Shown: positions 26,085 through 35,581 of the stretch, in pieces | Position numbering within the stretch: the first letter of the stretch is position 1 | Layout: every line of letters begins with the position of its first letter | DNA from: a virus | Length of the DNA: 45,029 nucleotides | IMG/VR virus record: IMGVR_UViG_3300023106_000015 | Location: 1 to 45,029 of that record | Strand: one strand, 5' to 3' | The notes under the pieces: model-generated | The model's database searches: none | What the model was told of the DNA's origin: nothing | What the model saw: the letters and a program-made list of their open reading frames with translations, nothing else | Translations under genes and position numbers: made by a program

Positions 26085-26738
26085 TTATTCCTTTACGTTT
26101 GTCGATTGGTTAATATCAAGATTACGAATATTCTTTAAACTAATATTCCCGTGACTTGCTTCTACTTGCATTTCATCTAGCCTATCCAAAATCCATTCAA
26201 TCCGTTTCCCCTGGCTAATTGCATCTTCCAGTGCGTCATGCTTAACAAGTGGTGCATATTTAGGATATTCAATATCCAAATACTTACACACATCATTTAG
26301 TGTCCGTGTATTCTGACCTACATAATACTTAAATGGATATGATCCATGGGCTGCATAGTATGCATTCTTAAGCCATGTGATATCTTGTTCACCTTTAGTA
26401 TAAATCTTAAGATCATTTAGATTTCCATCTCCACATACTTCTAGGCACCAGATATGGAAAGAAGAGAGAGCAGAAGATAGATCAATGACTCCACCAAATA
26501 CAATAGATCGAGTTGATTCATCTTGTGTACTCCACCATTCCATAGTTCCTTTATCTACATGAAGACCAAATGCTTCAGAAGATTTAGGATTGATATGGAT
26601 ATTAAAAGGTTTATGTGCTAGAATTGGATCAGAATGGTTATTGATAACACATGCTCCGATCTGAATGATTGCTGCATTATCTTCTAAAGACATTGTTTCT
26701 AGATCTAGAGAGATACGTGTGATTTTAGACTTATGCAT
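26085..26738 (-). CDS. DEDDh 3'-5' exonuclease (Rv2179c/RNase T-like)
   Basis: This 217-residue protein has all five residues of a DnaQ-fold DEDDh exonuclease: D12 and E14 in ISLDLETMS, D119 in GEQDITWLK, and H167 and D172 in VKHDALEDA. The AIIQIGACVI strand after the first motif and NTRTLNDVCKYL before the last are typical of the group that includes the Rv2179c-like exoribonucleases. It may recycle nucleotides from RNA or DNA or process ends. It overlaps the MazG-like gene by 8 bases, so the two are probably co-translated. Confidence 0.85.
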   Translation of the reverse strand: MHKSKITRISLDLETMSLEDNAAIIQIGACVINNHSDPILAHKPFNIHINPKSSEAFGLHVDKGTMEWWSTQDESTRSIVFGGVIDLSSALSSFHIWCLEVCGDGNLNDLKIYTKGEQDITWLKNAYYAAHGSYPFKYYVGQNTRTLNDVCKYLDIEYPKYAPLVKHDALEDAISQGKRIEWILDRLDEMQVEASHGNISLKNIRNLDINQSTNVKE

Positions 26739-29151: not shown

Positions 29152-31446
29152 CTATTCAGTTTCACTCCAATACTTTGCACCGATACCTTCGACTCCAATT
29201 TTAGATGCTGCAGGTACGGTGAAACGTCGTAACTTCCCGTCAGCACCGATAACTGATACCGGAATTTCCATTCTTTTTCTAACCTCTTCAACAAGGTAGG
29301 TGTGTCCAACTCTGTACTGGAAAAGTATGCTATCGTGAATCTGCGCGCAGAGCTTAAAGTTTTTGGAATGCTCAGGGTGTATAGCCAGGTCATAGAATAC
29401 TTTCATATATGCTTGGTTAAGGACCATAGCATTTAATGATTGAGATGGATGTGCGACGTACGAGTTAAGAGCTGGCTTAGACTTAGTAGGATCTGAGAAG
29501 CAGTAACGAGTCCAGCCTGTTGCACCAGTAAGTTTTTTGTGTACTTTAATTTGTTCTATGAGATAGTTGTGATAGCGTCCTCTAATGACTGGGTATGTTT
29601 TATCGAATCGATCAAGGAGAAAGACTGCGATTTCTCGTGCGGTCCATTTAGGGTTAAGACCGAGCAATCTACCAGCTTCGTAGATTGCTTTTTCTCCCAT
29701 GGTGTCGACAAGAACGTCAGGTCCCATGTTGTAATTAGCTCCGTGATTGACCCGTTTGGCAAGGTTCCTAAGCTTCTTATCCTTGGTGACTTTTCTAACA
29801 GAGTCATAAATAGATTCGTATGGAACACCGAAGAATGCTGAAGCATTAACAGAATGGAAATCTCTTTCTCCCGATACGGCGGATATGAGTGCTTCATCTC
29901 CAGCAATGTGCGCGACGTCTCTTGCCTCAGCTTGTTCCAGATCGCACTCGCCGAATAAGAATCCTTCATCAGCAATAATTGTCTGCTTAACTGTATTCCC
30001 GACAGGAATATTTTGTATATTGAATCCACACCAGAAATGGTGTTCCTTAGATGCAAGACGTCCTGTATCTGTTGCATGTGGATTGAGTGCGTATAGGACT
30101 CTACCTCTGAAGTCTTTACTTCCTTTATCATCTCCTTCTTTTGCTGAGTCATCTTCTGTCCTTAGGTATGTTGATTTAACTTTTCTCAGTGCACGAATAC
30201 CCATGAGTTCTAGATCATCAGTCTTAGGTACACCACGAATAAGATCAATGACACGAGAATTAATTGGATGACGATAGGCTGCTTTAGCCATATGCTTATC
30301 ATCTCTAGATGGCATGTCTTGGCATCCGAGAACTGCGAAGAGAGCTTTCATCTGGATAGGAGAGTTGACATTGAAATTCTGGACATTAAGAATTTTATCT
30401 AATGATGCAGATCTTTTCTCTACCATCTTTTCGATGCCAGCTCTTGCACCTTCAAGTCTAGATTCGTCTCTTTTAACTCCAAGCATTTCAGATAAATGAC
30501 ACGGGAATTGCACTGGGAATTCGAGAGTGTAGTTTTTATACGCCCAGTTAGGCGCCTCTTTAATCCAAGCGAGGAATACGTGTGCAGTGGCCCAAGTGTC
30601 CTTGGCGTTATACAGGTAATATTGTTCAAGGTCTTGTGTATCTGCCAGATCTTTCCAGTACGCCGCTTCACGAACAAAGAATGATTGAAGGAATGCAAGA
30701 TCTTTTGGTAACTCAGAATACCAGCAATGAAAGAGCGCGGCTGTATCCCAAAGATAGTTATATATAGGCGCATGGTATCGCGCGAGGTAAGATAGATCAT
30801 ATTTTCCATTCTGAAATATCTTCTGTGCTGGATTGGAATTGATAGTTCTCATTGTTTGCACTGAGGACATATCTGTCATAGGAATCACATAAGAGAATGA
30901 TTCGTAATGTGTCCCACAATCTTTGAGTCCGGTGTAACCGATACAGCGTATAGCTGCGTTCTGCTTAAATGTCTCAATGTCGCAGGCAATGATTCCACAA
31001 TCGTTAAGAAACTGAATTGCTTCCTGTTGCTTCGCATAGGTATCAGCGATACGCCATTGAAATTTCGTCGTAGTAAGCCATCCCTCAGGAGCGACCAATT
31101 TACTTGCCCACCGCTGAACGAGAAAAGATCCATACGGGACTGTGTACATCTGTTCGAGTGGATCACAAAATACATATTCAATCCCATCTTTTAAGAACAA
31201 GCTGCCTGCATAATTATCTAGAGTCGCATTAGACTTACCTGTAATTTTTGCAAGTAACGCCTGTGATGTAGATAATACTCCAGTGATATTTCTAGTATTA
31301 TGCTTACAATACATAGAGACTTCAGATACTGTGGAGACAGGACGAGTATCTACAAATACTTTCTTGCCTCCCATAAGAGGCTTAAGTCTTGCGAGATGTG
31401 GTTTGTCATCCTCAGTTCCTAGAAATAGAAGATTGTCGTGATTCAT
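29152..31446 (-). CDS. Family A DNA polymerase with 3'-5' exonuclease
   Basis: This 764-residue replicative polymerase has a proofreading domain with D156/E158 in ACDIETF, D217 in NGKYDLSYL and Y279/D283 in YNAKD, all intact. The polymerase domain shows TDTGRLAS (459-466), motif A GECDLEQAEAR (D502, E507), motif B LRNLAKRVNHGANYNMG (R560, K564, Y572) and motif C AQIHDSILF (H704, D705). Two positions are unusual: histidine 568 where Pol I has Phe762, and serine 706 where Pol I has Glu883. No 5' nuclease domain is present. The start overlaps the previous stop (ATGA). Confidence 0.93.
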   Translation of the reverse strand: MNHDNLLFLGTEDDKPHLARLKPLMGGKKVFVDTRPVSTVSEVSMYCKHNTRNITGVLSTSQALLAKITGKSNATLDNYAGSLFLKDGIEYVFCDPLEQMYTVPYGSFLVQRWASKLVAPEGWLTTTKFQWRIADTYAKQQEAIQFLNDCGIIACDIETFKQNAAIRCIGYTGLKDCGTHYESFSYVIPMTDMSSVQTMRTINSNPAQKIFQNGKYDLSYLARYHAPIYNYLWDTAALFHCWYSELPKDLAFLQSFFVREAAYWKDLADTQDLEQYYLYNAKDTWATAHVFLAWIKEAPNWAYKNYTLEFPVQFPCHLSEMLGVKRDESRLEGARAGIEKMVEKRSASLDKILNVQNFNVNSPIQMKALFAVLGCQDMPSRDDKHMAKAAYRHPINSRVIDLIRGVPKTDDLELMGIRALRKVKSTYLRTEDDSAKEGDDKGSKDFRGRVLYALNPHATDTGRLASKEHHFWCGFNIQNIPVGNTVKQTIIADEGFLFGECDLEQAEARDVAHIAGDEALISAVSGERDFHSVNASAFFGVPYESIYDSVRKVTKDKKLRNLAKRVNHGANYNMGPDVLVDTMGEKAIYEAGRLLGLNPKWTAREIAVFLLDRFDKTYPVIRGRYHNYLIEQIKVHKKLTGATGWTRYCFSDPTKSKPALNSYVAHPSQSLNAMVLNQAYMKVFYDLAIHPEHSKNFKLCAQIHDSILFQYRVGHTYLVEEVRKRMEIPVSVIGADGKLRRFTVPAASKIGVEGIGAKYWSETE

Positions 31447-31836: not shown

Positions 31837-32193
31837 CTAGAATGGAATGTCATCATCCATATCGTCATATGAATCAAACAGATCTTTAGCTCGTACTACT
31901 TGCCTATTAGGATCTGGATAGATTTCATCTCTTGGATCACGAGAGCGAATAGCAGGTTGTGCTTGTCCTTTAGGAGGAAAGATACCTTCTTCTTTAATTG
32001 CATCATAGAGTTCTCTAGAACAAGTATCTTTATTCTGCACTTCGGGGAATGCCCACAAGAGATAAGACCTACCATCTTTTGTGCAAGCTAATTCATTTGG
32101 TGTCTGTCCTTTATACTTACCAAATGTTAGCGGTGTGTCATCAATAGGTTCATCACCTTCTTCATGACGAGAATCTTCTAGCATGTTATCCAT
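31837..32193 (-). CDS. DUF3820-like protein with SSB-type C-terminal tail
   Basis: This 118-residue protein has LTFGKYKGQTPNEL (22-35) followed by SYLLWAFP (43-50), a pattern of the short DUF3820-like motif often found near exonuclease domains. Its last ten residues, YDDMDDDIPF, copy the acidic tip of bacterial SSB proteins, which recruits replication and repair enzymes. The region between is charged and probably disordered. There is no OB-fold in the sequence. It may compete with or mimic SSB at the fork; this is inference. The ribosome site is GAGGTAT. Confidence 0.7.
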   Translation of the reverse strand: MDNMLEDSRHEEGDEPIDDTPLTFGKYKGQTPNELACTKDGRSYLLWAFPEVQNKDTCSRELYDAIKEEGIFPPKGQAQPAIRSRDPRDEIYPDPNRQVVRAKDLFDSYDDMDDDIPF

Positions 32194-32247
32194 AGTTTAT
32201 ACCTCATGGTTAGTTGCTCGGATGAGCAGGGAAATATAAATTATGAA

Positions 32248-32277: not shown

Positions 32278-32721
32278 TTATGCGTCAATATCAATCTTCT
32301 TCAAGAGCATAGGCTTCTCACCATTGTACTCATTACCAAGTGCAGTAACAATAGTAACGGCAACTCCTGGCTTAGTAGCTTCAATCAGCTCACGAGTATT
32401 ACCATCCAGACCTGCTTCTTTCAGAGGTTTCAGAAGCATCTTCAACTGACCTTCACCGAATTCATTACGCGATCCATCTTTCTTATAGATGCTAATGAAA
32501 ATAGTTGCTTCATCACCTTCGTTAGGAGCAGCTGCAGTAGCATCAGAGAGTTCGATAGCTGCTTTGTATTTGAATTTAGCAATGATCTGTTGACGCTTAC
32601 CAGCTTTAGGTACTGGTGCAGTCAAGAACATATCTGCAGAATGCACACCTGGAGGGAATGCTTTCGTTTCTGGGAGGTCAGCCAAGTCATCAAGGGTAGC
32701 GTCAAGGAGAGAGTCGTTCAT
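32278..32721 (-). CDS. Hypothetical protein, possible ssDNA-binding role
   Basis: This 147-residue protein has an acidic N-terminus (LLDATLDDLADLPETKAF) and then a strand-rich core (QQIIAKFKYKAAIELSDATA, EATIFISIYKKDGS, GVAVTIVTALGNEYNG) compatible with a small beta-barrel. Its position between the Sak4-like ATPase and the SSB-tailed protein suggests a DNA-binding partner, but no family signature is visible. Codon use resembles highly expressed genes, consistent with an abundant binding protein. Confidence 0.55.
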   Translation of the reverse strand: MNDSLLDATLDDLADLPETKAFPPGVHSADMFLTAPVPKAGKRQQIIAKFKYKAAIELSDATAAAPNEGDEATIFISIYKKDGSRNEFGEGQLKMLLKPLKEAGLDGNTRELIEATKPGVAVTIVTALGNEYNGEKPMLLKKIDIDA

Positions 32722-32791: not shown

Positions 32792-33184
32792 TCATTTAAT
32801 TTCCTTCTGTTGAATTAGTACTCGATGAGAGAAGAAGACTGCTTTCTCTGCATCGTAGATTGGATTGTTTCCTTTTTTCTTCTTACCTAACCTAGCTGCT
32901 GCAATGCGCCAGATCGCTTTGAATGTATTAGCTTCAGCATAATTCATATTGAGAGCTTCGATAATATCATTACACTCAACATCATATGGATCAAATTGAG
33001 AAGTAGGATGCTGGATACGAATCTTATAATAGTTTACTGAACCACCAGTATGTTCGCCGTCGTCATTATCCTGCTGCTTCTTTTCGTTTGGCTGCGAGTC
33101 TTGCTGCGAGTCCAACGAGATTGCTTGCCGCGATTGATCCTGGAGTTGCATTGCTGCTTGTTTGCGCGCTTGAATTGGATTCAT
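32792..33184 (-). CDS. Hypothetical protein with Gln-rich N-terminus
   Basis: I start this 130-residue protein at 33184, where AGGAGAAAC precedes the ATG; upstream in-frame starts at 33253 and 33328 lack good ribosome sites. The first 50 residues are disordered and rich in Gln, Asp and Ser. The C-terminal domain (NYYKIRIQHPTSQFDPYDVE, then ECNDIIEALNMNYAEANTFK and IWRIAAARLGKKKKG) resembles a phage family of unknown function often near recombination genes. Its first 119 bases also encode the end of the upstream ATPase in another frame. Confidence 0.7.
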   Translation of the reverse strand: MNPIQARKQAAMQLQDQSRQAISLDSQQDSQPNEKKQQDNDDGEHTGGSVNYYKIRIQHPTSQFDPYDVECNDIIEALNMNYAEANTFKAIWRIAAARLGKKKKGNNPIYDAEKAVFFSHRVLIQQKEIK

Positions 33185-34070
33185 CTTTTGTTTCTCCTGC
33201 ACTTGTTTGTGCATCTGTTGTTTCGGTGTTAGTGGTGGGATTGATTGGTTCATTTTGCTTACTAGGTTGTTCTTTGAAAAGAATATTATTTCCGCCTCCG
33301 GCAAAGATACTTTCGAGGGATGGTTCATTCATTTTCTCCAGTGTCACATCAGTCCTAGAACCTACCATGATATTCATAGTGCTAGTTGTACCCGAGGTGA
33401 ATTTATGTTTCAGATTCGATACTTGTGCATAGATACAATGGCCGAAATATTTAGCAGTGTTACGAGAAAAATTCTTAGTACCTGCTGTTGGAACTAGCTT
33501 AACTTTCCCGTCTTCTAATTCCACTTCTGTCTCATGAGAGATACAGACTACATTGAACTTAGCTTGCTGCACATGGGATAGAAAAACATCCATAAGCTTA
33601 CCAAGGTTACCCCAATCTGTAAAGTCAAGCTTATAGTCATCAGGCTTATCTTTAGTGATGTGGGAGATGGCACTATTAGTAAGCTGAGTAAGGGAATCGA
33701 ACACAACAACGCTGTTAGAGTCAAGTGCGTTAAGTTCGACATTTGTAAAAGGTGCTCCAGATTTTTTGCATATTCCACAATCAATCTTACCGTGTGCTTC
33801 ACAGATAGCGCACTTACCTCCTTTGATTACTTTCAAGCATGTCTCAATTGCAATCGGATAAGAGCGAGTATCTGCTAGAGAGATAAGTTCTACATTCTCT
33901 TGTGCTTCTGGAGGAAGTTTGAATAATGTAGCGTGTCCATTCTCAAGATCGAACCAGATAAGTTTATGCTTAGCTGCGAGAAGAGATACGATCTGAGTTT
34001 TACCAGTCTTAGGAGGACCGAATACTAATACAGATTGTCGCGCTCCTCGTGGTGCATTAGTTAGTTTCAT
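33066..34070 (-). CDS. Sak4-like RecA-core ATPase
   Basis: This 334-residue ATPase has Walker A FGPPKTGKT (17-25) and Walker B VVVFDSLTQL (121-130), in the style of phage Sak4/AAA_24 proteins, single-domain RecA relatives that promote strand annealing and recombination with an SSB. A zinc-knuckle insertion (CAIC...CGIC, C87, C90, C98, C101) precedes Walker B. KNFSRNTAKYFGHCIYAQVS is a family-like segment after the core. The C-terminal 70 residues are Thr/Ser/Asn-rich and disordered. The start overlaps the nuclease stop (ATGA) with GGAG upstream. Confidence 0.8.
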   Translation of the reverse strand: MKLTNAPRGARQSVLVFGPPKTGKTQIVSLLAAKHKLIWFDLENGHATLFKLPPEAQENVELISLADTRSYPIAIETCLKVIKGGKCAICEAHGKIDCGICKKSGAPFTNVELNALDSNSVVVFDSLTQLTNSAISHITKDKPDDYKLDFTDWGNLGKLMDVFLSHVQQAKFNVVCISHETEVELEDGKVKLVPTAGTKNFSRNTAKYFGHCIYAQVSNLKHKFTSGTTSTMNIMVGSRTDVTLEKMNEPSLESIFAGGGNNILFKEQPSKQNEPINPTTNTETTDAQTSAGETKDESNSSAQTSSNATPGSIAASNLVGLAARLAAKRKEAAG

Positions 34071-35083: not shown

Positions 35084-35310
35084 GTTTCGATATCGCGTAA
35101 CCAGAGATATATTTTAAATACTTCTGATAGGATATCTTGTGTGTTAGTTAATAGAGTTGTTTCTATTAATGGGATATAGACCTTGCGCTCCGCGGGAAGG
35201 ATATATTGGTATACATCTAACCACTCAGCTAGTAGCTTGTATTTTGGGAATGGCCACATTCGTGCAGCCAATCGTGTTCTTAGCTCAGCCTCCTTAGAAT
35301 CCCAGATCAT
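34918..35310 (-). CDS. Hypothetical protein overlapping the nuclease start
   Basis: This 130-residue frame fills the gap between the 95-residue gene and the nuclease and runs about 166 bases into the nuclease in another frame. The core is helical and aromatic (MWPFPKYKLLAEWLDVYQYI, EVFKIYLWLRDIETCL), while the overlapping tail is serine-rich and disordered (TQVSSNSTNVHEDSSSISSR). The likely ATG at 35310 lies in the previous gene and lacks a clear ribosome site, so coupling is likely. Function unknown. Confidence 0.55.
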   Translation of the reverse strand: MIWDSKEAELRTRLAARMWPFPKYKLLAEWLDVYQYILPAERKVYIPLIETTLLTNTQDILSEVFKIYLWLRDIETCLTYQEQQILWTLIQSTKESSISATQVSSNSTNVHEDSSSISSRLNQIRNRLKT

Positions 35311-35581
35311 CTGTAGACACTTTCGAGAGTGCTTTCTTAGCCGCTGCGGATGTAGGTTTAGAGATCTTAGTTGCAATCTCTGTCTGAGTCTGAGCTTTTA
35401 AACCTGAGATAACAATTGCGAATTCTTCTTCAGCTAGGAGTGTGACAACAGCTGGATCATTCTTAAGGTAGCGATGAATCTCTTGGAGAAGAGAAGGCAT
35501 GCGAGGATTATTTTCTAGGAGTGCAGATTGAAGATTTAAGATCTTCTCTTTGATCTGTTCGTGTGATGTCATTTCAGCCAT
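35294..35581 (-). CDS. Hypothetical helical protein
   Basis: This 95-residue protein has a GGAGCGATC ribosome site and overlaps the previous gene by 8 bases. It is nearly all helical (SHEQIKEKILNLQSALLE, MPSLLQEIHRYLKND) with a basic, Ala/Lys-rich end before STDDLGF. No family recognised. Short LGF-type C-termini also end the products at 36318 and 43334. Confidence 0.6.
   Translation of the reverse strand: MAEMTSHEQIKEKILNLQSALLENNPRMPSLLQEIHRYLKNDPAVVTLLAEEEFAIVISGLKAQTQTEIATKISKPTSAAAKKALSKVSTDDLGF

Follow-up and report, generated by a model that had tools for sequence, protein, structure and literature searches.

A 118-residue protein encoded in the virus record analysed here (the window, 45,029 nucleotides) ends in an SSB-type C-terminal tip and has no detectable OB-fold of its own. 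The tip stands at the very end of the protein and is selectively conserved among its relatives, and the adjoining gene encodes a predicted OB-fold protein without such a tail. The standard signal by which bacteria recruit replication and repair enzymes is the SSB tail. We propose, with a probability of about one half, that the small protein is an adaptor which presents an SSB tail in trans and so recruits tail-binding proteins, of host or phage, to phage ssDNA.

Results

The open reading frame is read on the minus strand (32193 to 31837) and starts with ATG; the plus strand at these positions is interrupted by stops. The C-terminal end of the product is RAKDLFDSYDDMDDDIPF, closing with SYDDMDDDIPF, and the final six residues are identical to the E. 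coli SSB tip as quoted in PMC5928155. The acidic end in Pro-Phe of bacterial SSBs stands here directly before the stop, and the first-pass annotation had read this tip (YDDMDDDIPF) correctly. The DNA pattern for DDDIPF followed by a stop occurs once in the window versus 0.00 times in 100 dinucleotide shuffles. Coordinates are collected in Table 1.

Table 1. Features of the 118-residue protein and of its genomic surroundings
Feature	Position	Strand	Basis
118-aa protein: ExoX-like_C-type domain, linker and SSB-type C-terminal tip	31837..32193	-	ORF translation, AlphaFold model, Pfam profiles
Predicted folded part, residues 20-68, motif LTFGKYKG..YLLWAF, helices 32-37, 39-51, 60-68	31990..32136	-	AlphaFold pLDDT 78-90 over residues 21-70; ExoX-like_C in family members
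Low-confidence linker, residues 69-112, little conservation among relatives	31858..31989	-	AlphaFold model and pairwise identities
C-terminal tip DDDIPF, residues 113-118	31840..31857	-	Translation; equals E. coli SSB tip
GAGG, Shine-Dalgarno-like, 8 nt 5' of ATG	32202..32205	-	Sequence
Predicted OB-fold, DUF669-like candidate ssDNA-binding protein, 147 aa, end LLKKIDIDA, no acidic tip	32278..32721	-	pLDDT 89.8; PrgE fold match; DUF669 viral models
Sak4-like recombinase, possible tail partner by HK620 analogy	33066..34070	-	phrog_124 E 4.6e-19
Phage DNA polymerase, PolA type; served to find syntenic relatives	29152..31446	-	phrog_17 E 3.2e-63
Stand-alone 3'-5' exonuclease without ExoX-like_C; possible partner of the detached domain	26085..26738	-	PF16473 E 4.5e-28, PF00929 E 2.4e-6

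The AlphaFold model (mean pLDDT 71, from a shallow alignment of 16 sequences) contains three short helices and no strands; the linker and the tail are modelled with low confidence. No SSB family match was found for the protein in Pfam and PHROGs, and PF00436 is absent from the whole window. Structure prediction had been suggested beforehand as a check, since an OB-fold would have made this an ordinary SSB; it returned a small helical domain with a disordered linker and tail. The absence of an OB-fold that had been claimed from the sequence thus holds, and an ordinary SSB was rejected.

The motif LTFGKYKGQTPNEL, which the first-pass annotation had called DUF3820-like, is really present in the protein. 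Of 16 relatives, 6 gave weak matches to DUF3820/QSregVF_b (PF12843), with a best E of 0.02, and the protein itself gave none. The best Pfam relative of the motif is ExoX-like_C (PF20600), matched at E<=1 by 15 of 16 family members with a best E of 1e-12; the protein reaches 14.5 bits against a cut-off of 26.5, and the curated cut-off is exceeded by fusion proteins and by one stand-alone copy of a Rhizobium phage. The conserved F-G-K...W core of ExoX-like_C is retained in the family, with F24, G25 and W47 invariant and K26 in at least 90% (alignments A5 and A6). From these profile comparisons, LTFGKYKG appears closer to ExoX-like_C than to DUF3820. A search of the PDB for sequence or fold relatives of the domain returned none that were usable, which proves nothing as the query model is of low confidence, and no plasmid relatives of the protein were found.

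ExoX-like_C usually forms the C-terminus of DnaQ-type exonucleases, and such fusions occur in phages Y11 and Y8A as well as in genomes of Campylobacterota. The domain is also fused to an HD protein and to proteins which we call SSAP-like by inference from sequence, phrog_10048 and phrog_19042 carrying no assigned function. These SSAP-like proteins themselves terminate in DDDLPF, ENELPF or similar; ExoX-like_C and an SSB-type end are therefore combined on more than one kind of protein. The one case in which a tail could be compared with that of the host is an SSAP-like relative in Anaerosalibacter: the host SSB ends in DDDDIPF, whereas the ends of the relatives are ENELPF and ENELLF, and an exact match of tail and host SSB found no support there.

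A chance origin of the tip was rejected by the shuffles mentioned above and by two further comparisons. At least 120 stretches of the viral collection contain DDDIPF with a TAA stop, the single stop codon considered, versus 3 in the whole collection for the reversed peptide FPIDDD with the same codons and stop. At polymerase-related loci, an SSB-type tip is carried by 6 of the 10 genes of the family versus 2 of 1,453 other genes (Fisher p 4e-13, a descriptive value only, because the rows are related and the search profile was built mainly from tipped members and may overstate their share). Among the six tipped members, mean pairwise identity is 68% in the tip, 39% in the domain and 27% in the linker, and the tips use differing synonymous codons. 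These members belong to two separated polymerase clades and occupy two gene positions, one on either side of the polymerase. In the set of 26 related phage records, the in-frame tip is found on the ExoX-like_C protein family only; one extra match in record G008 (L223) was discarded as out of frame.

The first-pass annotation had proposed looking for tail conservation in homologues and had named homologues without the acidic tip as evidence against its reading. Here the outcome is divided: the tip recurs in the six of ten genes given above, but about half of the stand-alone relatives do not have it (L001, L012, L015, L017, L085, L216, L217, L220 and L003), which speaks in part against that reading. 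Vibrio and Rhizobium phage isolates carry tip-less stand-alone relatives as well. Judged from the alignments, the tip is optional, yet looks maintained wherever it is present. In two of the tip-less relatives (L216, 4875-5186; L017, 7718-7978) a similar acidic stretch (DLFDSYDQDPDDAPF and DLFDDDNLP) lies at the N-terminus and not at the C-terminus.

SSB-type ends were also met outside the family. Small proteins of related phages end in GDDIPF (L039, 3442-3819) and DDDDIPF (L047, 2326-2661); the GKYKG domain is absent from both, and they gave no PHROG matches. DUF669 proteins of other phages bear DDDIPF in cis, and a primase/helicase has it too. In unrelated phages (L129, L200, L110, L130, L146 and L186), proteins resembling processivity factors, DEAD/ResIII helicases, a DnaB-like protein and an AEP primase carry DDDIPF tips. 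In the open PMC literature, we found no description of SSB-type tips on non-SSB phage proteins.

The gene lies between those for the Sak4-like recombinase and the DNA polymerase, and its location in a replication cluster, as claimed earlier, was confirmed by the neighbours in Table 1. What had been overlooked is the predicted OB-fold protein encoded directly upstream. The best solved match to its model is PrgE (E 3.5e-4, Z 8.6), an OB-fold SSB-like protein of plasmid pCF10 (PMC11137577), and many DUF669 proteins are among its best viral model matches. PF05037 (DUF669) is matched by 2 of 45 relatives (best E 9e-4), the window copy giving no match. Judging from its predicted structure, this product is likely a phage SSB candidate, and it is tail-less: none of the 81 homologues found carries a tip, and a tip is likewise missing from the proteins encoded at the corresponding position in Polaromonas phage Tiera and Pseudomonas phage PaP2. 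A gene of the small protein's family is present in 10 of 81 related loci, and the remaining 71 lack the family gene and have a tip-less OB protein. It follows that replication with such machinery does not require the tail, and a strict split SSB, which would need the tail gene in every locus, was ruled out.

Further terminal motifs were seen in the cluster. The conserved 95-residue protein at 35294-35581 (minus strand) ends in ...STDDLGF, and its relatives in DDLGF, DDL, DAF or DDI; it is a second short acidic-hydrophobic C-terminus in the cluster. In Sak4 and its relatives the linker looks disordered and the C-terminal end is basic and conserved; in 67 of 73 cases this end fits a loose L..L..K/R pattern, and it might contact the tail-less OB protein. 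An acidic motif DD[LI]xDxP (e.g. LDDLADLPEF) is common to the N-termini of 71 of the 81 OB protein homologues, where it might serve as a recruitment motif at the opposite end.

Discussion

With bacterial SSB, the protein described here shares the final six residues, their terminal placement and a preceding disordered linker; it differs by having no OB-fold and an ExoX-like_C-type domain as its body. In T7 gp2.5 and T4 gp32 an acidic tail recruits replisome partners. There, unlike here, the tail is in cis on an OB-fold protein. The FGK[YH]KG...YL.W core is shared with ExoX-like_C proteins, but these are often fused to a nuclease or an SSAP-like protein, whereas our protein is stand-alone and tipped. 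Hutinet et al. 2018 (PMC5928155) showed that in phage HK620 the SSB encoded beside sak4 belongs to DUF669, and that Sak4 cannot bind SSB-covered ssDNA without the six C-terminal residues of this SSB, NDYPPF. Both systems have a DUF669-like OB protein in a sak4 module and an SSB-type tail in the cluster; in HK620, however, the OB protein bears its own tail, whereas here the tail belongs to a separate protein encoded alongside. This difference, together with the occurrence of DDDIPF on other phage replication proteins, favours an adaptor acting in trans. A warning against this reading comes from DdrB of Deinococcus (PMC3834827). It too lacks an OB-fold and acts in ssDNA metabolism, but radioresistance does not depend on its purported SSB-like C-terminus; the difference is that DdrB itself binds and anneals ssDNA.

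According to the adaptor reading, the small ExoX-like_C-type domain would dock on the phage replication or recombination machinery or on its DNA, and the flexible linker would present the free C-terminal DDDIPF. The tip could then be bound by proteins with an SSB-tail pocket, such as PriA, RecO, chi, DnaG and ExoI of the host, or by the phage Sak4, and these partners would be brought to phage ssDNA. In this way the adaptor would provide the tail that is missing from the adjoining SSB candidate. From established SSB biology, host proteins could plausibly be recruited or titrated.

Other explanations were considered. The tail may touch phage proteins alone, mainly Sak4, as the HK620 tail does, and no host proteins. 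The HK620 pair of DUF669 SSB and Sak4 is a precedent (PMC5928155), and sak4 is found a short way upstream of the OB gene. We nevertheless regard this as doubtful, as Sak4 occurs in almost all related loci without a tip, and Sak4 in this group of phages has its own basic C-terminal tail that might contact the OB protein instead. A free tail could also titrate or block host SSB-interacting proteins (e.g. RecQ, ExoI, RecJ and RecO) and thereby spare the phage DNA attack or recombination, with the domain merely stabilising or localising the tail. One low-affinity tail per molecule would, on general grounds, have to outcompete an abundant tetrameric host SSB, and the position of the gene among core replication genes rather suggests recruitment, as does the recurrence of this tip in other phages, where helicases, a primase and processivity factors carry it. 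Titration is therefore unlikely in our view, even though the E. coli-type tip and the lack of an own ssDNA-binding fold agree with it, and phage inhibitors of host recombination enzymes are known, e.g. against RecBCD (PMC9836394).

The domain itself, and not the tail, could be decisive if it is the detached C-terminal part of a DnaQ/ExoX-type exonuclease and pairs with the separate exonuclease encoded in the window, the tail being secondary. The fusions to DnaQ-type exonucleases agree with such an accessory role; about 5 kb lie between the two genes, however, and in other phages ExoX-like_C is carried by SSAP-like or HD proteins, which renders it improbable. Finally, the acidic tail might be self-regulatory, mimicking DNA by folding onto a basic surface, or it might be a neutral leftover of domain shuffling. 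Many relatives have no tail, L216, L017 and L015 have acidic stretches at the opposite end, and the DdrB tail is dispensable. But the tip, including the terminal Pro-Phe, is the best conserved part of the tipped members, which plain acidity would not need, and we give this last explanation very little credit.

Returning to the adaptor in trans, a bolder version, which we put forward only tentatively, would be a two-gene SSB, in which the OB-fold ssDNA binder and the recruitment tail are separate cooperating proteins and DDDIPF is a portable recruitment tag on many unrelated phage replication proteins. If this is true, the tail could be regulated, swapped or lost independently. The separation of the tail from the ssDNA-binding fold, beside a tail-less phage SSB candidate, makes supply in trans directly testable. 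From the wider census, such tips appear to recur on phage proteins other than SSBs; if so, they would offer a sequence handle for phage proteins that hijack host replication factors.
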